Positions 416 to 19,373 of a stretch of DNA of 26,982 nt are shown here, one piece after another. Source of the stretch: a virus. Made by a program: the position numbers and the translations under genes. Under the pieces are notes generated by a model. It did not search any database, was not told the origin of the DNA, and worked only from the letters and a program-made list of their open reading frames with translations. Position 1 is the first letter of the stretch; each line of letters opens with the position of its first letter. The stretch spans positions 1 through 26,982 of IMG/VR virus record IMGVR_UViG_3300024348_001719; one strand, 5' to 3'.

Positions 416-1837
416 TTACCTGCATATTGTAAAGTTGTATGCTTTTTCCCAATTAATAATATCATTTTCATCATTAAGCAATGGCTTTCCTTTAATATTA
501 AGACTTGTGTTTAATAAGACTGGAACGCCAGTTTCAAGGTAAAACTTATTTATTGCTCTCCATAGCCCACGATTCTGATCTTTATTTACGGTCTGGACCC
601 TTGATGTTCCATTTAAATGTACTACAGAAGGTATCTTATTGGGTTGTAGGCACTTAACGGTATACTGCATGTAGGGGCTTACAAAGTCCATGTCAAACCA
701 TTTAGATGCAAACTCTTCCATAACAACTGGAGCAAATGGTCTAAAAAGTTCTCTTTGTTTAATTAGATTAACTTTGTCTTTAATTAGTGCATCTCTTGGA
801 TCTGCAAGAATACTTCTATTTCCTAGGGCTCTTGGTCCGTACTCTGCTCTGCCTGTTGCTACTGCTACAATTCCATCTTTTAATATACCGTCCACAATTT
901 GCTGAACAGGATACTCTCCTCCAAGATCATAACCAAGATAAGGAGTCTTCCATTCAAGGTGCTTTCCATAAAGGGCTGCTGCTGCACCTAAAGAACTACC
1001 AGCATCTCCTGGGTTAGGCATGATCCAAATCATATCAAAAATATTCCATAGCAATGTATTTGCTGAAGAATTAAGAGCACAACCACCCATAAATACTAAA
1101 TTGTTTTTACCAGTAAGGGACTTTGCCATACGCATAAACTGATTTAATCTTTGTTCATAAACTACCTGTACTGCTGCAGCAATATCAAACTTATCTTGCT
1201 CAGTAATGACCATTCCCCAGTCATTAATTCCTTTATGAAAGTTATACTTTTGTTGATCATACTCTGGAAAATACTCATCTATTTCTTTGTAATACCTTCT
1301 CCAGTCTCCGTATGCAGCCATGCCCATCATAATATATTCTTCTTGGTTTGGCATAAGTCCGATGAGTTGTGTAAATGCAGAGTAAAACAATCCAAAACTA
1401 ACAGGATAGTTTTGCTTATACTTAAGTTTGATCTTATCGCCCTCACCTGCCCAAATTGTGGAGGTATTGTATTCCCCTATTGCATCAAGAACTACAATAA
1501 CTGCATCATTAAACGCACTTGTATAGTACCCTGCTGCAGCGTGGGAATAGTGGTGCTTAAAATAATGAACTGGAACATCTATTGGAAATGTTGGGTTCCA
1601 GTCGCTGGATCCACCATGCAGAATCATTCTAGATTTTTTAAGCAGGGGTTTTTCGTAGTATGCAATTGCGTCTGGAGTTCCGTAGTTTAATGCATCTAAA
1701 ATAATTTCTTTGTTGTTATACCAGTCATTTTTTTGTTTGCTATATCTTTCTGCATGACCAGCAAAAAGTATCTCACCGTTTTTAATTAAAGACACTGATG
1801 CGTCATGAGATGTTTCATTAATTCCTAAAATTATCAT
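416..1837 (-). CDS. NodU/CmcH/TobZ-family carbamoyltransferase
   Basis: A predicted O-carbamoyltransferase that moves a carbamoyl group from carbamoyl phosphate, through carbamoyl-adenylate, onto a hydroxyl of a sugar, nucleoside or DNA base. Family marks are in order: NETSHDAS at 7-14, ERYSKQKND at 30-38, the metal-site HHYSH at 95-99, VVLDAIGE at 115-122, FMGGCALN at 249-256, PGDAG at 276-280, then the C-terminal YGPRALGNRSILADPR at 333-348 and FRPFAPVV at 365-372, ending with LLNTSLNIKGKP. At 473 residues it is shorter than the usual 550-600 residue members, but both the Kae1-like and the C-terminal domain are present. It overlaps the upstream SGNH hydrolase gene by 20 bases, so the two are probably translated together. 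Phage homologues can modify DNA (5-carbamoyloxymethylcytosine) or small molecules and glycans. No TET or base-methylating gene is visible here, so the substrate is open. Confidence 0.9.
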   Translation of the reverse strand: MIILGINETSHDASVSLIKNGEILFAGHAERYSKQKNDWYNNKEIILDALNYGTPDAIAYYEKPLLKKSRMILHGGSSDWNPTFPIDVPVHYFKHHYSHAAAGYYTSAFNDAVIVVLDAIGEYNTSTIWAGEGDKIKLKYKQNYPVSFGLFYSAFTQLIGLMPNQEEYIMMGMAAYGDWRRYYKEIDEYFPEYDQQKYNFHKGINDWGMVITEQDKFDIAAAVQVVYEQRLNQFMRMAKSLTGKNNLVFMGGCALNSSANTLLWNIFDMIWIMPNPGDAGSSLGAAAALYGKHLEWKTPYLGYDLGGEYPVQQIVDGILKDGIVAVATGRAEYGPRALGNRSILADPRDALIKDKVNLIKQRELFRPFAPVVMEEFASKWFDMDFVSPYMQYTVKCLQPNKIPSVVHLNGTSRVQTVNKDQNRGLWRAINKFYLETGVPVLLNTSLNIKGKPLLNDENDIINWEKAYNFTICR

Positions 1838-2669
1838 TTTTATCTAAATATTTTTTATATATAAAGTTAAACCAGTAGTCATGATATGCAACTCCAGCAT
1901 GTCCACCATCCCTTGCTATTATATTATATTCATTATTAGGGTTATTTTTTTCAAAATTAATTATGTGATCAGCCATTTCTTTTTTATTTGTTTCATAAAA
2001 AAAATCAAAGTTAATTATTCCTGTTTCAATAAACTGCTCTTTATAGTCTTTTTCATTATCCATCCAAGTAAAAGCATAAAGTTTAATGCCATTGCTTCTA
2101 CAGTATTCTCCTAAAATAAATAAATATTGATAAGATATTAGTCTTAAAATTTTAATATTTTCATTATTATATACTGCATCTATAATTGTTTTTTCTTTTG
2201 AGTTATATCCATAAAACCTTATTAAATTTGGAATATTTAAAAAGATTATATTTGGATTTCCATATTTTTTTGAATACTTTATTATATTTATAACCTGTGT
2301 AATTATTGAAGATCCTGCGGTTGCTAAATTAAAAAATCCAGATAATTGATTATTTTTTGATATTTCTTTATAAAGTTTATTTGACCAACTTTCATTAAAC
2401 AAAAGTCCAACACCCCATGTATACGAACATCCAGAAAAAAGTACATGGGTACCATTATGTATTTTTGTAAATTCATCGCACCTAAACATTAAAGAATTTA
2501 ATTCTTCTTTTTTTAATCCTAATTTAATATAATTAAAATCTTTATCCCATGTATCAAATAAAGGAAGTTTATTTAATGGTTCATCTCCATATATATTTTT
2601 ATCTGAATGTGGAACTTTATTAAATTCTCTGTATGGAATTAAAAAAGAATCTTCATCTATGCTATTCAT
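1818..2669 (-). CDS. SGNH/GDSL-like hydrolase
   Basis: A probable SGNH-fold esterase or acyl-ester hydrolase of unknown substrate. Block I is VLFSGCSYTWG at 76-86, with Ser82 as likely nucleophile; NLATAGSS at 114-121 supplies the oxyanion glycine; FLNIPN at 143-148 supplies the Asn; and ARDGGHAG at 252-259 fits the C-terminal Asp-x-x-His pair (Asp254, His257). There is no signal peptide, so it should act in the cytoplasm. The gene is strikingly AT-rich compared with both neighbours and the protein is about 12 percent Asn (35 of 283). No good ribosome binding site precedes the ATG. The 20-base overlap with the carbamoyltransferase gene suggests a joint pathway, for example acyl and carbamoyl decoration of the same sugar or base. 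That is inference; the fold call is fairly safe, the substrate unknown. Confidence 0.7.
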   Translation of the reverse strand: MNSIDEDSFLIPYREFNKVPHSDKNIYGDEPLNKLPLFDTWDKDFNYIKLGLKKEELNSLMFRCDEFTKIHNGTHVLFSGCSYTWGVGLLFNESWSNKLYKEISKNNQLSGFFNLATAGSSIITQVINIIKYSKKYGNPNIIFLNIPNLIRFYGYNSKEKTIIDAVYNNENIKILRLISYQYLFILGEYCRSNGIKLYAFTWMDNEKDYKEQFIETGIINFDFFYETNKKEMADHIINFEKNNPNNEYNIIARDGGHAGVAYHDYWFNFIYKKYLDKNDNFRN

Positions 2670-2844: not shown

Positions 2845-3723
2845 TTAACCTAAAAGACTTACAAGCCTATTGGTTGTAGTTGTTCTTCCTACTGCTGGCT
2901 TAGATACTGATACAAAGTAATCATATGTTGCTTGATATGTACCCTTATAATTTTTAGCCCATGATGCAGAAAATGCTGCAGTTGCTGCAGATGTTCCTGC
3001 AAATCTTCCAATTTGAGTATCAAATACTCCAAGAGAATAAAAATCTACCTCTGGTGCAGCATTTGAATATGGAGCCATTGCATTATCTTCTGTTGCTCCA
3101 CCAATTGCTACAGCCTGTGGAATACATGCTGGAAAATCAATTCTAAAGTAATCTCTATTATTTCCAGCAGCAAAAATTGTTGCAACTCCAGCAGCAGATA
3201 ACTTATCAATGTTTCCAATAAGTTCTGCATGTGTTACACGAATTGGACAATACTTTGGTCCTGTTCCTAAGTTATGATTTCCCTGTGATGCAGAAACTGA
3301 AACAATATTGTACTTTTGCTTATTAGCAACTACCCATGTAAGAGCCTTTGTCACTTCATTAATGCTATAAGTGTCCATTGTTCCACTCTTAGTTAGTCCT
3401 GCAATGCGAACAAAAATAATATCTGCATCTGGATTAACCCGATTAGCAACAAGTGCCATGATGGTTCCATGTTCAAACCCACCCTTTAATGCTACAGATG
3501 ATGGAAGAGTTGCTGCTCCAACACCTTCTTGGAATCTTTGACCATTTGGACAAACCATGCTTCCAAGAATACAAACTTCTTGTACAAGTTTTGCCTTTAG
3601 TTGCGGAATAGATGAATCAATTGCTGTATCAATAATAACAATTGACTTGTTTGGTTCTGCATGTACTGGCTGTAATAGTACTAAACTAAATACCGCTACA
3701 ATTCCCACTGCTATTTTTTTCAT
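2845..3723 (-). CDS. Secreted subtilisin-like (S8) serine protease
   Basis: A predicted exported endopeptidase. Residues 1-22 form a classical signal peptide: a Lys-Lys N-region, a hydrophobic core and a VHA cleavage site before Glu23. The S8 triad follows in order: Asp32 in IVIIDTAID, His85 in FEHGTIMA, and Ser245 in GTSAATAAF, with the oxyanion Asn188 in FAAGNN. At 292 residues it is a minimal catalytic domain with no clear propeptide between the signal and Asp32, which is odd because most secreted subtilisins need one. Several cysteines (51, 58, 159, 200) could form disulfides. The start is fixed by AAGGAG six bases before ATG. The 17-base leader is identical to that of the 368-residue surface protein. 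It is the last protein gene before tRNA-Asn. Cleavage of host surface proteins or maturation of the other secreted phage proteins are the obvious guesses. Confidence 0.9.
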   Translation of the reverse strand: MKKIAVGIVAVFSLVLLQPVHAEPNKSIVIIDTAIDSSIPQLKAKLVQEVCILGSMVCPNGQRFQEGVGAATLPSSVALKGGFEHGTIMALVANRVNPDADIIFVRIAGLTKSGTMDTYSINEVTKALTWVVANKQKYNIVSVSASQGNHNLGTGPKYCPIRVTHAELIGNIDKLSAAGVATIFAAGNNRDYFRIDFPACIPQAVAIGGATEDNAMAPYSNAAPEVDFYSLGVFDTQIGRFAGTSAATAAFSASWAKNYKGTYQATYDYFVSVSKPAVGRTTTTNRLVSLLG

Positions 3724-3971: not shown

Positions 3972-4496
3972 CTAAAGACTCACTACGTCAACTGGCCCCA
4001 TGCATGAAGGGTTAAATTTAATTGCAGCATTTACTGCTTGGACTACTCTGTTCCTGGCATTTTTTTGTTTATCTGTTGCATATAGAACTCCATAAGCATA
4101 CTCTGCTCCAGAACCCATAGCCAAATATGGCAGGGAATATTTAGATAAAGACATATCTGCAGAACTATGTTCATATATTTGTCCACGAACACAGATAATT
4201 AAACCAAGGTCTCCATCTTTAGATGTGTCTACCCAGAACTCATTATAAAATTCTTTTAGTTCTTTAACAAACCTTGTCTGCATAAATCTATCTGTATCTT
4301 TGATATTAGGAGCAGATGGTTTAAAGTTATAACGGATTCTTTCTCCGTCCATTGCACCTGCATACCCAATAAGATAAGGTCCTATCTTCCAAACCTTTGG
4401 TGCTTCAAGTGCTAGAATAGTACCATCATCTGATGCTCCACGATCTCCAGCCATGTAAACTTTATCTTCATGGCGAACAACAGCGATGCAAGTCAT
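3972..4496 (-). CDS. Proteasome-beta/HslV-like Ntn threonine protease
   Basis: A predicted Ntn hydrolase of the 20S proteasome beta/HslV fold, a cytoplasmic peptidase that normally forms a barrel. After removal of Met, the exposed N-terminus is Thr1-Cys-Ile-Ala. In mature numbering Asp17 (AGDRG) and Lys33 (APKVWK) sit at exactly the canonical distances. The GSG motif at 128-130 of the precursor matches the Ser129 region, and Asp170 with Ser173 near the C-terminus match the Asp166/Ser169 pair. LIGYAGAMDGERI corresponds to the conserved GFAG segment. No propeptide is needed because Thr directly follows Met. Length (174) fits HslV. No HslU-like or other unfoldase gene is in the window, so it may work with a host ATPase or alone on peptides. 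The ribosome binding site GGAGGGG is strong and lies in an invertible leader. Substrate unknown. Confidence 0.85.
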   Translation of the reverse strand: MTCIAVVRHEDKVYMAGDRGASDDGTILALEAPKVWKIGPYLIGYAGAMDGERIRYNFKPSAPNIKDTDRFMQTRFVKELKEFYNEFWVDTSKDGDLGLIICVRGQIYEHSSADMSLSKYSLPYLAMGSGAEYAYGVLYATDKQKNARNRVVQAVNAAIKFNPSCMGPVDVVSL

Positions 4497-12014: not shown

Positions 12015-12647
12015 CTATTTTAAGTCAATATCATAGTTAAATCTATCAGAGTTTTCCATTATCCATTTGTCTTGATTTTCTACGTCATACTTTCTCTCAT
12101 TAATTATTCTGTCAATTAGATATTCTTTTTCCAGGGTAAACGAAGGCTCATATACCCTGACTCTATTATTAGGCTGAATTGCAAAATTTCCATCATCTCT
12201 TTGAATAACATGTCCACACTTGTGGTCTGCAGGACTTTCAGAATATCCATCATCTAAGACATTGCTATCTGGGTTATGCCAGTCTAGTGTAAATAGGTAC
12301 GTCCCCTTATGCATTGTCTTTGTTCTATCAATATACGACATTCTAAGGTTTGTTAGATTTTCAAATCTTGTTACAGCAACATGATGACTAAAAGAATTCC
12401 ATAGAACTAGGTTATGTAGATCAACTTCAGGAACTCCTGGCTCTGTACAAAAAGCAGAAATTGGAAGTCTCCACCAAAGGCCACCGTCTGGCATCAAAAT
12501 ATGAAATAGTGGGCTTCTAGACTTTAAACTTGAAACACCAAAGACTACGCACTCAAAGTATTTATCGTGGCTATCTTGATGGTTTCTTAAATAATTTCCT
12601 CTTACATAACAGTTTATCGGTGGTATGTTTGCATTTAACTCTGGCAT
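12015..12647 (-). CDS. Conserved-looking phage protein of unknown function
   Basis: A 210-residue soluble protein without a recognised domain. The N-terminal half is beta-like with NCYVRGNYLRNH at 12-23 and FHILMPDGGLWWRLPISAFC at about 48-67. The middle carries LFTLDWHNP near 118 and GYSESPADHKCGHVIQRDDG near 134, with several His and Cys that might bind metal. The C-terminus is charged. Its ATG shares a base with the RuvC stop codon (TAATG), so it is coupled to the recombination operon. Position among recombination genes hints at DNA metabolism, nothing more. Confidence 0.75.
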   Translation of the reverse strand: MPELNANIPPINCYVRGNYLRNHQDSHDKYFECVVFGVSSLKSRSPLFHILMPDGGLWWRLPISAFCTEPGVPEVDLHNLVLWNSFSHHVAVTRFENLTNLRMSYIDRTKTMHKGTYLFTLDWHNPDSNVLDDGYSESPADHKCGHVIQRDDGNFAIQPNNRVRVYEPSFTLEKEYLIDRIINERKYDVENQDKWIMENSDRFNYDIDLK

Positions 12648-15102: not shown

Positions 15103-16108
15103 TTGCCAATTTATCTCTTAGGCTTTTCTGTAAATCTAAATCTTCTCTTACACGATTAATAAACCCATCTCGCCCTTGAACCTTTGTACCATCATCAAGT
15201 TGATACCATGCTCCAGTACGATTAACGAGTCCTACTGATTCTGCTGTGTCAACGAGATCACCAATGGCATCAATACCAATATCGTCACCTCTAAAATAAA
15301 AATCATACTCACCAGACTGGAACCCTGGAGAGGTTTTAGAGAACTGTAGTTCCCAGCGAATCTTTCTACCAATTTTTTCTTCAATTAATTTATCTCCTAC
15401 TTTAATCTTTCCCTTAAGTGCTTGATTATCTGACTCTGACGAAAATAATTTAATAACGCACGACGAATAAAACTTAGTAGCCTGCCCACCTGAAGGCTGC
15501 TGGCTAGTATACATAGCGTTAATATTATTACGGGACTGAGAAATAAGTACAAGAAGAGTTGGCTTAACTTTATTGTTAGCATAATTAAGCATTTTCCACG
15601 CATTACTAAAGTCACGAGACTCTGCCCCAATCTGTTTAGTATTTTCTAATGCTTTCATTTCATCTGTATCTTTTTCAAAATATATTGCAGGAAGCATTGA
15701 TGTAATTGAATCTATAACTATTAAGTCAACACCAGCATTCATTAATCCAACACCTACATCAACCATATCACTAATAGTTCTTGCTTGTGAATAAATAAGT
15801 TTTGTTGGGTCTACTCCAAGTTGTTTAGCCCAGTCTTCAGAATATGACATTTCAGAATCAATCCATGCACAAAGTTTTCCTTCTGCTTGGGCTATAGCAA
15901 TCATCTGAAGGCACATAGAGGACTTTGCAGAGGACTTGGAGCCCCAGATAAGAACTTGTCTGCCATAAGGAAGACCCCCTCCTAGAGCACGGTTTAAACC
16001 AAAACTAGGTGTTGCTTGATACTCATAATTAATGCCAACTCCACTACCAAGTTTTTTTCTTAACTTAGGATCAAGTAGTGCTAATGCTTCTTCTATACTA
16101 ACCGACAT
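15095..16108 (-). CDS. RecA-like recombinase with altered Walker A
   Basis: A strand-exchange ATPase of the RecA/UvsX class for recombination-dependent replication and repair. Numbered from ATG 16108: P-loop GSKSSAKS at 56-63, putative catalytic Glu86 in WIDSEMSYS, Walker B LIVIDS with Asp133, and LVLISQSRNN near 186-195 matching the region before loop L2. In the P-loop GxxxxGK[ST], the second Gly is Ala61. A C-terminal extension (YDFYFRGDDIGIDAIGDLV) resembles the cellular RecA segment after the core. The ATG at 16108 was chosen because GGAGG is six bases upstream; the ATG at 16114 abuts it. It overlaps the DnaE stop by 11 bases. At 337 residues the length is normal. Confidence 0.88.
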   Translation of the reverse strand: MSVSIEEALALLDPKLRKKLGSGVGINYEYQATPSFGLNRALGGGLPYGRQVLIWGSKSSAKSSMCLQMIAIAQAEGKLCAWIDSEMSYSEDWAKQLGVDPTKLIYSQARTISDMVDVGVGLMNAGVDLIVIDSITSMLPAIYFEKDTDEMKALENTKQIGAESRDFSNAWKMLNYANNKVKPTLLVLISQSRNNINAMYTSQQPSGGQATKFYSSCVIKLFSSESDNQALKGKIKVGDKLIEEKIGRKIRWELQFSKTSPGFQSGEYDFYFRGDDIGIDAIGDLVDTAESVGLVNRTGAWYQLDDGTKVQGRDGFINRVREDLDLQKSLRDKLANG

Positions 16109-19100
16109 GTACATCCTCCAATGTTACTGTTCCGTCTTTTGTTTTTCCAAAACTAAACTTATAAGCCTTGCCTTCTTCAATGTGCATGTATGCTCTTGGG
16201 AATGCAGTAGGAAACACAGTTACAGAATGAAGTTCTCTACTAGTATCTGCTAATGTTAGAGATGCCATCTTCTTTCCAGCCTTTGTCATTCTTGGTTTAA
16301 AAGAAACAACAAATAATTCTTCTTCAGAATAAGGCAGTTGTTTATAACTTAAAAACTTTACTAGGGCATTTGGAGATCCCTTAATTTCATCAACTGGAAT
16401 AGCAGATACAATTCTGTTATCTGTAGCAAGAATAAGGTATGTCTTTCCTGTTTCAATAGTTGTTTGCTCTTCATCAAATATTCCAACTGATCCAGTCTTA
16501 TCTAATAACTCTACTCTTGACCAGCCAGTGCCACGTTTAATTGCTTTAACCATACCCATTAAAATAAATGAACCCTTTTCTTCAAAAGAATCAACATCTT
16601 GAATAAATGCATAGTAATGTGAAGGTATAGTAATGTTAAACTCTGGAAGGTTTAAGAACTCATAAAGATTTTCCTTAATCTCAGCATCATTTCTTGGTTG
16701 ATCTGCAAAGGTTGCAGCACCAATTACACGCAGAGCATTAAGTGCACGACTATTGACTCCATTGCCTTTTGTAAATGTGAACTCTTCAAGTTCTTTGTAT
16801 GTTTTAAATGGTCTAGCAGCAATATACTTTTCTGCAATGTTAGTTGATATAAACTTAATACCAGTCAGGCCAAACCTAATTCCCTTACCCTCAATTTTAA
16901 AATCAAAATCAGAGTCATTGATATGAGGAAGTTTTACTGGAATCCCCATGCGCTTTGCCTCAATTAAATATTCTGTTCTTCCGTCTTTATCTTTTTCGTT
17001 TTTAAGTAATGCAAACATAAACTCAAGAGGATAATGATATTTTAGCCACGCCGTCCAATACGAGAGCGTAGAATAAGCAACCGCATGAGACTTGTTGAAC
17101 GAGTAGCCTGCATGTGCTTCAAAGTCGTGCCATAGATCAAGAGCCTTATTGGGAGTAATATAGGCAGAAGCACCTTTGACAAATTGTTCTTTGTATACAT
17201 CAAACTCTTTAGCATCCTTCTTCTTGCCAATGATTTTTCTAACTTTATCTGCTTCCGACATGGACATTTGTCCAAGGTGTACACATGCTTGCATAACTTG
17301 CTCTTGGTAAAGAACACAGCCATAGGTATCCTCCGTAAACTCTTTCATAATCTGGTGAATATAAGATACATTTTGCTTACCATGTTTACGAGCAATATAA
17401 TCTTTACCAATAGTATTCATAGCACCAGGACGAACAAGTGCATTTGATGCAGCAAGTTCATTAAAATTCTTTACACCCATCTTAACAAGAAGGTTTGTGT
17501 ATGGTGTTGCTTCACACTGGAAGACACCTTTTGTATATCCATCAGAAAGCATTTCATAAACTTTTGCATCTGCAAGATCAAGAGAATCTAAGTCAATATC
17601 TTTATAATGATTTTCTTTAATCATAGCAACTGCATCTTGAATAACACTTAATGTTTTAAGACCAAGTGCATCAATTTTTATAAGCCCGATGCGTTCAGCC
17701 TCTTCCATGTCGACACCAACCACAGGTATACGTTCATCAGACCCAGGACTAGATCTCGTTTCCATTGGAGCAAACCTAAAAATCGGATCTTTGCTAGTGA
17801 CCACACCAGCAGCGTGTATACCAGTACCACGAATACGACCACGTAATTGTTCACCATAAACCTCCACCTCTGGATATTTTTCTCTAAACCAAGCAGCAGT
17901 CCTTGATGAACAATATTCATCCCAAGTGTCTACCAACTTTAAAACCTTGTTTACATCTGTTAATGGAATATCTAGAACTCTGGCTACATCTCGCACAACA
18001 CCCTTATCTTTAAATTCAAGGAATGTTGCAATAGATGCAACGTGTCTATACTGTCTAACAAGATAGTCTTTAACTTCATCACGTCTGTTATCTTGAATAT
18101 CTGTATCAATATCAGGAAAGTCATTACGTTCTGGGTTAATAAAACGGAAAAATAGAAGTCCATACTTAATTGGATCAATGTCTGTAATTCCAAGTGAGTA
18201 ACAAACCAATGAACCTGCTGCAGATCCACGACCTGGACCTACCATAATGCCTTCCTTCTTAGCCCAAGCAATCATGCTTTGAACTACAAGGAAGTATGGT
18301 GCAAACTTCTTATCTTTAATAATCTTAAGTTCTTCATCAAGTCTATCTAGGTATTCTTTGTTATCTGACAAACCTTTTATTTGTAAGCCCTCTAAAGATA
18401 TCTTAGCAAGTTCCCTATCAGGACTCTTGTATTGTACTGGCAGTAGGTTTAGTCCATCTTGTATCTCATAGTCTTCTACTGTATCTGCTAGTAGTAGAGT
18501 GTTGGCATAGATGTCAGGTCTATCAATACCCTGCGATTCCATCGCTGCCTTCATCTCTTTATAAGACAAAAGGTGAATGTCAAACTTGTTAAATGTTATC
18601 TGGCGATCTTCTCCATATAGATAGTCAAGTCGCTTCATCATGTCTGGTTGCTTTTTTGACTTTTCATATGTTGCTTCTTTATTTACTTTACCATGTGTGT
18701 TAAGCAACAACTTAAACTCTTGGATCTCTCTTTGTGATTGGTCAACATGGTGACAGTCTGGTGTAACAACAACCTTAATGCTAAACTCATCTGCAAGTTC
18801 TATTAGGTATTTATTTATTTGTGCTTCATTGTGTGGCATTACTTCAATGTAGTAATCACTACCAAAGGTATCTTTAAACCATTGAATGTATTTCTTAGCA
18901 AGAGCAAACTCTTCTTCTTCTAATGCCTTAACAATAACACTACTTGGACAAGCAGAAGTTACAATAATACCTTCACGATACTTTTGTAGAATATCAAAAT
19001 CAAATCTTGGCTTTTTAAAAAAACCATCTGTCCATGATAATTCACTAATCTTGTTAAGGTTTTCTAAACCTAATTTATTCTTGGCTAGAAGGATAATGTG

Positions 19101-19373
19101 GTTATAGACAAGATCTTGCTGACCTTCTCTTTCAGACTTATCTCGTTTATCAGATATGTCTGCACACATGTATCCTTCTAGACCTAGAATCGGCTTAATA
19201 CCCTTTTCTTTAGCCATGCGATACATCTCACGGTGACCAGATAACGTACCATGGTCTGTGATTGCGATTGCTGGCATACCTAAAGCACTAGCACGGTCAA
19301 CATACTCTTTTGGAGTTGCTACGCCGTCAAATAGTGAGTAATGGGTATGTACGTGTAAGCCTACGTAGTTCAT
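16098..19373 (-). CDS. dnaE: DNA polymerase III alpha subunit (DnaE-type) with PHP domain
   Basis: The replicative C-family polymerase of this phage. The N-terminal PHP domain has HVHTHYS at 7-13, TDHGT at 39-43 and PDCHH at 205-209, so metal-dependent proofreading is possible. In the palm, MVGPGRGSAAGSLVCYSLG at 377-395 binds nucleotide, PDIDTD carries Asp421 and Asp423, and IKIDALGLKTL carries Asp568. The thumb and fingers follow, with the helix-hairpin region and a C-terminal OB-fold near 950-1040. The length of 1091 is slightly below cellular DnaE (about 1160). No separate epsilon exonuclease, sliding clamp or clamp loader is in the window; host ones may serve. The ATG follows the SSB stop with one base between. 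DnaE-type polymerases are common in actinobacteriophages. Confidence 0.95.
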   Translation of the reverse strand: MNYVGLHVHTHYSLFDGVATPKEYVDRASALGMPAIAITDHGTLSGHREMYRMAKEKGIKPILGLEGYMCADISDKRDKSEREGQQDLVYNHIILLAKNKLGLENLNKISELSWTDGFFKKPRFDFDILQKYREGIIVTSACPSSVIVKALEEEEFALAKKYIQWFKDTFGSDYYIEVMPHNEAQINKYLIELADEFSIKVVVTPDCHHVDQSQREIQEFKLLLNTHGKVNKEATYEKSKKQPDMMKRLDYLYGEDRQITFNKFDIHLLSYKEMKAAMESQGIDRPDIYANTLLLADTVEDYEIQDGLNLLPVQYKSPDRELAKISLEGLQIKGLSDNKEYLDRLDEELKIIKDKKFAPYFLVVQSMIAWAKKEGIMVGPGRGSAAGSLVCYSLGITDIDPIKYGLLFFRFINPERNDFPDIDTDIQDNRRDEVKDYLVRQYRHVASIATFLEFKDKGVVRDVARVLDIPLTDVNKVLKLVDTWDEYCSSRTAAWFREKYPEVEVYGEQLRGRIRGTGIHAAGVVTSKDPIFRFAPMETRSSPGSDERIPVVGVDMEEAERIGLIKIDALGLKTLSVIQDAVAMIKENHYKDIDLDSLDLADAKVYEMLSDGYTKGVFQCEATPYTNLLVKMGVKNFNELAASNALVRPGAMNTIGKDYIARKHGKQNVSYIHQIMKEFTEDTYGCVLYQEQVMQACVHLGQMSMSEADKVRKIIGKKKDAKEFDVYKEQFVKGASAYITPNKALDLWHDFEAHAGYSFNKSHAVAYSTLSYWTAWLKYHYPLEFMFALLKNEKDKDGRTEYLIEAKRMGIPVKLPHINDSDFDFKIEGKGIRFGLTGIKFISTNIAEKYIAARPFKTYKELEEFTFTKGNGVNSRALNALRVIGAATFADQPRNDAEIKENLYEFLNLPEFNITIPSHYYAFIQDVDSFEEKGSFILMGMVKAIKRGTGWSRVELLDKTGSVGIFDEEQTTIETGKTYLILATDNRIVSAIPVDEIKGSPNALVKFLSYKQLPYSEEELFVVSFKPRMTKAGKKMASLTLADTSRELHSVTVFPTAFPRAYMHIEEGKAYKFSFGKTKDGTVTLEDVHVG

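Follow-up and report, generated by a model that had tools for sequence, protein, structure and literature searches.

Carbamoyltransferases (CTases) of the NodU/TobZ type include TobZ, GdmN, and NovN, which have secondary-metabolite acceptors and a carbamoyl adenylate mechanism that serves as the model here. Two-domain CTases of the same type are also carried by phages: the 5-hydroxymethylcytosine (5hmC) CTase of the MetaGPA study (PMC8670742) and the CTase of Bacteroides phage BF486P3, both linked to dCMP hydroxymethylase/thymidylate synthase, and the CTases of S-SSM7, S-SCSM1, HTVC008M, and Mosig, annotated as Nol-like or plainly as CTases. Here, a CTase gene that overlaps the gene of a predicted SGNH-fold hydrolase was analyzed in IMG/VR virus record IMGVR_UViG_3300024348_001719, a 26,982-base phage sequence that is itself a fragment (the whole stretch is hereafter called the window). 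The pairing of the two genes recurs beyond chance in other phages, with a conserved CTase and a hypervariable SGNH partner. The pair would belong to the phage tailoring enzymes around Nol-like CTases, an already known kind; among literature search results, no description of a phage CTase-SGNH pairing turned up. The reading preferred here, tentatively and at just short of an even chance, is that the pair forms a recurrent intracellular phage tailoring module whose acceptor would be a sugar, a glycan, or a glycosylated (virion or surface) protein, not a DNA base.

The window CTase shares the domain family and conserved residues of TobZ, GdmN, and NovN, but these are longer by ~100 residues or more. 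It is ~27-35% identical to the CTases of S-SSM7, S-SCSM1, HTVC008M, and Mosig, and all four of those stretches hold 2-oxoglutarate (2OG)-Fe(II) oxygenases or an Asp/Arg hydroxylase near the CTase; the cyanophage and pelagiphage Nol-like CTases differ in being longer and in lying in sugar-nucleotide/lipopolysaccharide-type clusters, and those included in the CTase tree fall on another branch. The BF486P3 stretch, unlike the window, has no annotated SGNH partner. For the SGNH protein, the fold is shared with the SGNH deacetylase of the G7C tailspike gp63.1 (4qnl, Z 13.2), whereas the window-type proteins are standalone, with 280-370 amino acids (aa), lie beside a CTase, and gave no evidence of a virion-attachment domain. 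Two peptide-modifying systems combine similar enzymes. The crocagin pathway, as described in the available text of PMC10070186, draws on a 2OG dioxygenase (CgnC), a hydrolase (CgnD), and a carbamoyltransferase (CgnI), enzyme kinds that are also found here, and CgnI is likened to the window CTase by enzyme kind. It is bacterial, however, and neither a precursor peptide nor peptide-binding proteins were noticed for the phage genes. In StdF (PMC13174530, available portion), a NodU-like CTase is fused to an S8 peptidase, works with it on a peptide, and forms homocitrulline, whereas in the window the subtilase is encoded by a separate and hypervariable gene, its product is exported, and a tRNA gene separates it from the pair.

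A scan of viral contigs for the CTase returned 577 related stretches, of which the best 80 (82-91% identity) were kept and, with the window, gave 81 loci; L001 is the window's own copy, and L082 and L083, which have no CTase, were excluded from the 81-locus counts. Genes were called by greedy picking of open reading frames (ORFs), and antisense ORFs were skipped when neighbors were taken. An SGNH gene was the nearest same-strand neighbor of the CTase in 52 of the 81 loci (26 upstream, 16 downstream, and 10 on both sides); in 12 it lay at another place in the stretch, and from 17 it was absent. Dereplication at 97% CTase identity left 40 loci, 25 with an adjacent SGNH gene, four with one nearby, and 11 with none; when the SGNH genes were placed at random, 5.5 loci on average, and never more than 14, had them adjacent over 2000 permutations. 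Adjacent pairs mostly overlapped or abutted, with gaps of -50 to +78 bases, and profile searches recovered an SGNH-family gene in all 12 long relatives (59-118 kb, G001-G012).

Adjacency was also counted in two further sets, more distant from the window. A marine virus derived from a single cell has a CTase with 42% identity, which yielded 80 loci (81 with the query), and in this marine T4-like group the SGNH gene adjoined the CTase in 27/42 dereplicated loci, against a permutation mean of 14.4 and a maximum of 23 over 500 permutations. A cellular-genome collection yielded 80 loci (29-45% identity), 77 of them with a CTase ORF; an SGNH-like gene was adjacent in 12 of the 77 (permutation mean 5.1, maximum 11 of 2000). 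On the CTase tree, SGNH adjacency changed at least 10 times. Because the excess of adjacency also appears in the marine and cellular-collection loci, the coupling is wider than one phage genus. The initial annotation had counted a lack of co-occurrence in other genomes against its reading; the survey of gene neighbors that it called for instead places the two genes together in 25/40 and 27/42 dereplicated loci, far beyond chance. The pair had at one stage appeared unique to the window, when a first SGNH scan gave two loci and no annotated phage, an impression overturned by tblastn and profile searches on the CTase loci; among annotated phages, the marine SGNH was found in two records only. It is very unlikely that the genes are mere neighbors in a variable accessory region, with no shared pathway: the 2OG, subtilase, and other enzyme genes in the same stretch, together with the 11 loci that have no SGNH gene, would fit such an arrangement, but adjacency exceeds permutation in all three sets and arose repeatedly.

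Divergence within the pair was unequal. Among the 25 SGNH-adjacent loci, median pairwise identity was 85% for the CTase, a value that partly reflects selection of the loci as best CTase matches, and 27.8% for the adjacent SGNH protein. Since the choice of loci depended on the CTase, other genes of the same loci provide the fair comparison, with TerL, the endolysin, and the HslV-like protein as controls; medians over those of the 40 loci holding each gene were 74.8% for TerL, 66.1% for TerS, 83.7% for the endolysin, 89.3% for the HslV-like protein, 62.3% for Hsp20, and 31.1% for the exported subtilase. The CTase is thus conserved and the SGNH partner hypervariable, with its putative triad kept (see below). 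The exported subtilase is almost as variable among the relatives as the SGNH gene.

In the marine set, the SGNH cluster comprised 170 genes in 70/81 loci, a sulfotransferase-like cluster comprised 147 genes in 61/81, and a glycosyltransferase-like gene was present in 79 copies in 79/81; these cassettes sit beside genes read by eye as T4 baseplate gp25/gp6. The marine loci (L090-L170) include tandem arrays of diverged SGNH genes, up to about six, and of sulfotransferase-like genes, up to seven, upstream of the CTase and gp25/gp6. SGNH hypervariability, the tandem diverged copies, and the sulfotransferase-like genes of the same stretches would all suit an island for counter-defense or superinfection exclusion, in which SGNH, 2OG, sulfotransferase, and CTase genes are exchanged and disarm or alter host molecules. 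Such an island is nevertheless quite unlikely, given that the CTase is highly conserved and that unrelated phages retain the CTase-SGNH order and the overlaps, a pattern suggestive of a single pathway and not of loose cargo.

As a single sequence, the window SGNH protein matched nothing in Pfam, PHROG, NCBIfam, or PDB. In an alignment of this protein with 38 relatives (39 rows, mean column identity 20%), eight residues were invariant in 39/39 (G80, S82, G86, P139, R151, C190, D254, and H257). The block I nucleophile motif GxSxT/SxG and a C-terminal Asp-His are present, the spacing of Asp and His varies among members, and a putative Ser82-Asp254-His257 triad is kept in all 39 members. In SGNH hydrolases, block III (GxND) carries the oxyanion Asn; an invariant Asn is absent from this alignment, in which P139 and R151 are invariant instead. 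The family profile matched GDSL/TesA chains over block I, and an AlphaFold2 model of the window protein (predicted local distance difference test, pLDDT, 82; predicted template modeling score, pTM, 0.82) matched SGNH esterases in Foldseek and VIA-align comparisons, with TesA, EstA, and CgnD among the matches. TesA reached TMt 0.67, structural Z scores were 14-16, CgnD (15.8 over 214 residues) was tied with TesA (15.7), and carbohydrate esterases and PatB scored Z 13 or more. Because of the fold and triad, the label of a predicted SGNH hydrolase is justified, and the protein looks catalytically intact.

A hydrophobic N-terminus was found in 0/47 SGNH proteins, vs. 19/20 subtilases, and the SGNH proteins therefore probably act in the cytosol, as judged from their N-termini. 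A role as a tailspike was considered and rejected, as a tail-fiber PHROG was matched by only 1/39 members, and one marine SGNH protein matched weakly, over 20 residues. No profile-matching ORF >390 aa, and hence no SGNH fusion, was found in the actinophage set (the window and its relatives) or the marine set. A 602-aa "Radical_SAM" protein from an uncultured phage (BFVD A0A6J5LTW5) has a predicted fold containing an SGNH-like domain and is a possible fusion link.

Where no SGNH gene adjoined the CTase, the slot was usually held by a 2OG-Fe(II) oxygenase. A 2OG neighbor (clusters 0, 52, and 77) was present in 1/25 SGNH-adjacent loci vs. 10/15 other loci (p 3.3e-5), and the Pfam-confirmed clusters 0 and 77 by themselves gave 0/25 vs. 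6/15 (p 0.0013); 2OG cluster 97 was never adjacent to the CTase. Anywhere in the locus, 2OG genes were found in 25/40 (strict) or 28/40 dereplicated loci. Sequence searches of Pfam, PHROG, NCBIfam, and PDB gave no match for cluster 52, and profiles did not link it to cluster 0; its model (pLDDT 73) is predicted to have a 2OG/prolyl-hydroxylase-type fold, with Z 16.2 to 2rg4/3bvc and 14.4 to PHD2. 2OG adjacency changed eight times on the CTase tree, and 2OG-FeII_Oxy_3 was matched 5-12 times per record in 12/12 long relatives.

These enzyme kinds also raise the possibility of peptide or protein modification resembling that of ribosomally synthesized and post-translationally modified peptides (RiPPs), in which prolyl-hydroxylase-like 2OG enzymes would hydroxylate side chains on a peptide or protein of the phage. 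The CTase would then carbamoylate a hydroxyl or Lys, with the SGNH protein serving as leader protease or esterase. Crocagin biosynthesis uses the same three kinds, with CgnC 2OG/Fe-dependent (PMC10070186, available text), and CgnD is the first structural match of the window SGNH protein, although its rank is tied and the carbohydrate esterases and PatB also score high. According to the available portion of PMC13174530, homocitrulline is formed in a RiPP by a NodU-like CTase that is joined to an S8 peptidase, and the window pair likewise has an S8 subtilase gene just upstream; the subtilase family is exported, however, unlike the in vitro role implied there for StdF. The many 2OG oxygenases of the long relatives, and radical SAM proteins that adjoin some marine CTases, would also suit such a pathway, but neither a precursor peptide nor a recognition element was noticed, no systematic search for short precursor ORFs having been made. 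On balance, a RiPP-like role is judged unlikely.

The CTase matched both Pfam domains over cut-off (Carbam_trans_N, PF02543, 1.7e-33; Carbam_trans_C, PF16861, 1.7e-51), the Nol-like CTase family phrog_1601 (2.7e-101), and PDB chains of NovN, GdmN, and TobZ. Consistent with the earlier claim of a full set of family motifs, it has every residue that is invariant over 12 diverse CTases (a set that includes it), among them H95/H96/H99, D118, D278, GPRAL, R362, and NTS443-445. We take the conserved His and Asp to be metal residues, and the enzyme looks catalytically intact from its sequence. In a CTase tree of 54 rows, which has long branches and bootstrap support that is not fully settled, the CTases of the actinophages, marine phages, C48C1, L183, and L184 formed one 100/100 clade. 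Close cellular relatives were absent from a first search, and 45% and 44% matches were later found on two contigs of metagenome-assembled genomes (MAGs). The MAG contig with the 45%-identical CTase (NZGL01000008.1, L183, labeled Gammaproteobacteria) also carries SGNH-like genes and an epimerase, and appears to be a phage contig that ended up in a MAG bin.

One acceptor considered in the initial annotation was DNA, modified to 5-carbamoyloxymethylcytosine, which it described as established for TET-linked phages. In the available part of PMC8670742, this base was made in vitro by a CTase chosen for its co-occurrence with a homologue of thymidylate synthase/dCMP hydroxymethylase, so that the TET link is not borne out there, and W408, G421, and R423 (TobZ numbering) are given as positions that discriminate 5hmC CTases. 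These positions are spaced as in the TobZ chain as printed, where they have chain indices 414, 427, and 429. The window CTase has V, G, and R at the three positions, whereas the MetaGPA and BF486P3 CTases have I, C, and T; G421 and R423 are present in 20/20 actinophage rows, window included, and position 408 is V or I in the window's clade but W in TobZ and 11/14 cellular-collection rows. Position 408 does not argue against 5hmC, because the 5hmC CTases have I there, but positions 421 and 423 do. In the same incompletely settled tree, the two 5hmC-type CTases form a separate 100/100 branch, itself long, apart from the window CTase.

Gene content points in the same direction. Among the 12 long relatives, none of them rated complete, thymidylate synthase/hydroxymethylase was found in 0/12 and Tet_JBP over cut-off in 0/12, absences that are not proof because of that incompleteness. 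Weak sub-cut-off Tet_JBP matches occurred in 5/12, and at least two of these places are 2OG-FeII_Oxy_3 genes (G010, ~89.7 kb; G005, ~91.6 kb). Within the window, the absence of TET, hydroxymethylase, and glycosyltransferase genes stated in the initial annotation holds for the 20 proteins scanned with Pfam, a set that left out the remaining, mostly smaller ORFs and a DnaE-like ORF (16098-19373). Carbamoylation of 5-hydroxymethyl-pyrimidines in DNA or RNA is thus highly improbable, even though the superfamily has a proven 5hmC CTase (PMC8670742, available part), the window's clade resembles the 5hmC CTases at position 408, and weak Tet_JBP matches exist.

For the preferred reading, an intracellular module that tailors a sugar, glycan, or glycosylated protein, we infer the two reactions, the order in which they occur, and the acceptor as follows. 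The CTase, by analogy with TobZ, would activate carbamoyl phosphate with ATP and would carbamoylate a hydroxyl (or amine) on an acceptor that is produced during infection inside the host cell. The enzyme that presents this acceptor group would be encoded in the variable slot beside the CTase: an SGNH hydrolase would remove an acyl group from the acceptor, and in other genomes a 2OG-Fe(II) hydroxylase would install a hydroxyl. A free hydroxyl, as needed by an O-carbamoyltransferase, would result from the action of either partner, and the fast divergence of the SGNH gene may reflect an acceptor that differs between phages or hosts. The data are compatible with the original idea that one acceptor undergoes both acyl and carbamoyl editing, whereas a DNA base as that acceptor is unsupported. 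A sugar-related acceptor is favored by the setting of related genes: cyanophage and pelagiphage Nol-like CTases lie amid GDP-mannose, fucose, heptose, or UDP-sugar genes and glycosyltransferase genes, and the marine cassettes hold the glycosyltransferase-like and sulfotransferase-like genes noted above.

Several observations weigh against this tailoring module. The SGNH gene is absent from the fetched stretch in 11 of the 40 dereplicated loci, although these may reflect truncation, because some loci end near the CTase. The alternation of SGNH and 2OG genes is based on 40 related loci, the two slots partly exclude each other by construction, and independent pairs on the tree favored the expected direction by 4 vs. 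0, which is not significant (p 0.125). A search of the 12 long relatives for the base-modifying or sugar-nucleotide genes suggested in the initial annotation was negative for the former, as reported above; for sugar genes, it gave a PF11397 glycosyltransferase in 4/12, GT2 over cut-off in 0/12, and an epimerase in 1/12. Recognized glycosyltransferases thus occur only sporadically among the actinophages, so that not all of these phages would make a glycan of their own. Finally, the neighbors of the cellular CTase-SGNH pairs are only weakly polysaccharide-like.

Two of the long relatives (L171-L182), G006 and G010, both carry adenylylsulfate kinase genes (PF01583), and sulfotransferase-like genes occur in related cassettes; the Pfam inventories of these two records cover 62/113 and 67/106 ORFs of at least 95 aa and comprise the commonest 25 of 55 and 53 families, respectively. 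A FAD-dependent tryptophan halogenase (PF04820, 3.9e-104) is encoded in actinophage relatives (L058:13551-15074 and cluster 66, seven loci).

The features of the window are listed in the table. The 20-base overlap of the two genes, reported in the initial annotation, was confirmed; the CTase start lies inside the final 20 bases of the SGNH gene, an arrangement that makes translational coupling likely. The extensin-like segment of the 897-aa protein belongs to a family (PF02095) also matched in G010, and from its sequence this Pro-rich protein is a possible candidate substrate for prolyl-hydroxylase-like enzymes. The protein with the ferredoxin match resembles, by eye, the marine cluster 12 protein, whose gene in several marine loci has the CTase on one side and gp25 on the other.

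Table. Coordinates of the CTase-SGNH pair and other features of the window.
Feature	Position	Strand	Details
Carbamoyltransferase (CTase), NodU/TobZ type, short phage clade	416-1837	minus	ATG start, 473 aa
SGNH-fold hydrolase (predicted), hypervariable partner	1818-2669	minus	ATG start, 283 aa
Frame overlap of CTase and SGNH genes	1818-1837	minus	20 shared bases
tRNA-Asn (GTT) gene	2764-2837	minus	Between subtilase and SGNH genes
S8 subtilase, exported, just upstream of the pair	2845-3723	minus	Hydrophobic N-terminus in 19/20 family members
HslV/proteasome-like peptidase	3972-4496	minus	phrog_1040; PF00227 barely over cut-off; conserved in relatives
897-aa protein, hydrophobic N-terminus, Ala/Thr-rich, extensin-like Pro-rich segment	5044-7737	minus	PF02095 1.3e-12, below cut-off
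"Ferredoxin" match	12015-12647	minus	phrog_3704

The host is likely a freshwater actinobacterium, as suggested by gene content. A WhiB-type gene, treated as an actinophage marker in the available excerpts of PMC10202952 and PMC10611076, was found in 28/83 sources, relatives that share the window's terminase and other gene clusters (representative PF02467, 2.8e-11), and none was seen in the window's own stretch. A broader, rather doubtful proposal is that a pathway decorating proteins or peptides is common to abundant freshwater actinophages and T4-like marine phages, as a phage counterpart of the crocagin and Std peptide systems. In it, prolyl-hydroxylase-like enzymes or the rapidly diversifying SGNH hydrolase would expose groups on a phage protein, and the conserved CTase of the short clade would cap them; if true, it would represent enzymatic carbamoylation of viral proteins or glycoproteins, of which no description turned up among the literature search results.

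Many marine phage genomes list Nol-like CTases among their auxiliary genes, with no known substrate, and the pairing with SGNH hydrolases, together with the alternation with 2OG oxygenases, offers a two-step hypothesis with few candidate acceptors. It also brings into view a standalone SGNH family that is barely seen by single-sequence Pfam, PHROG, and NCBIfam searches. The separation of this CTase clade from the DNA-base-modifying one helps to avoid its misreading in metagenomes as a marker of restriction evasion. Should a glycoprotein of the virion or surface prove to be the acceptor, chemical diversity between phages and their hosts could be read from the hypervariable SGNH gene.

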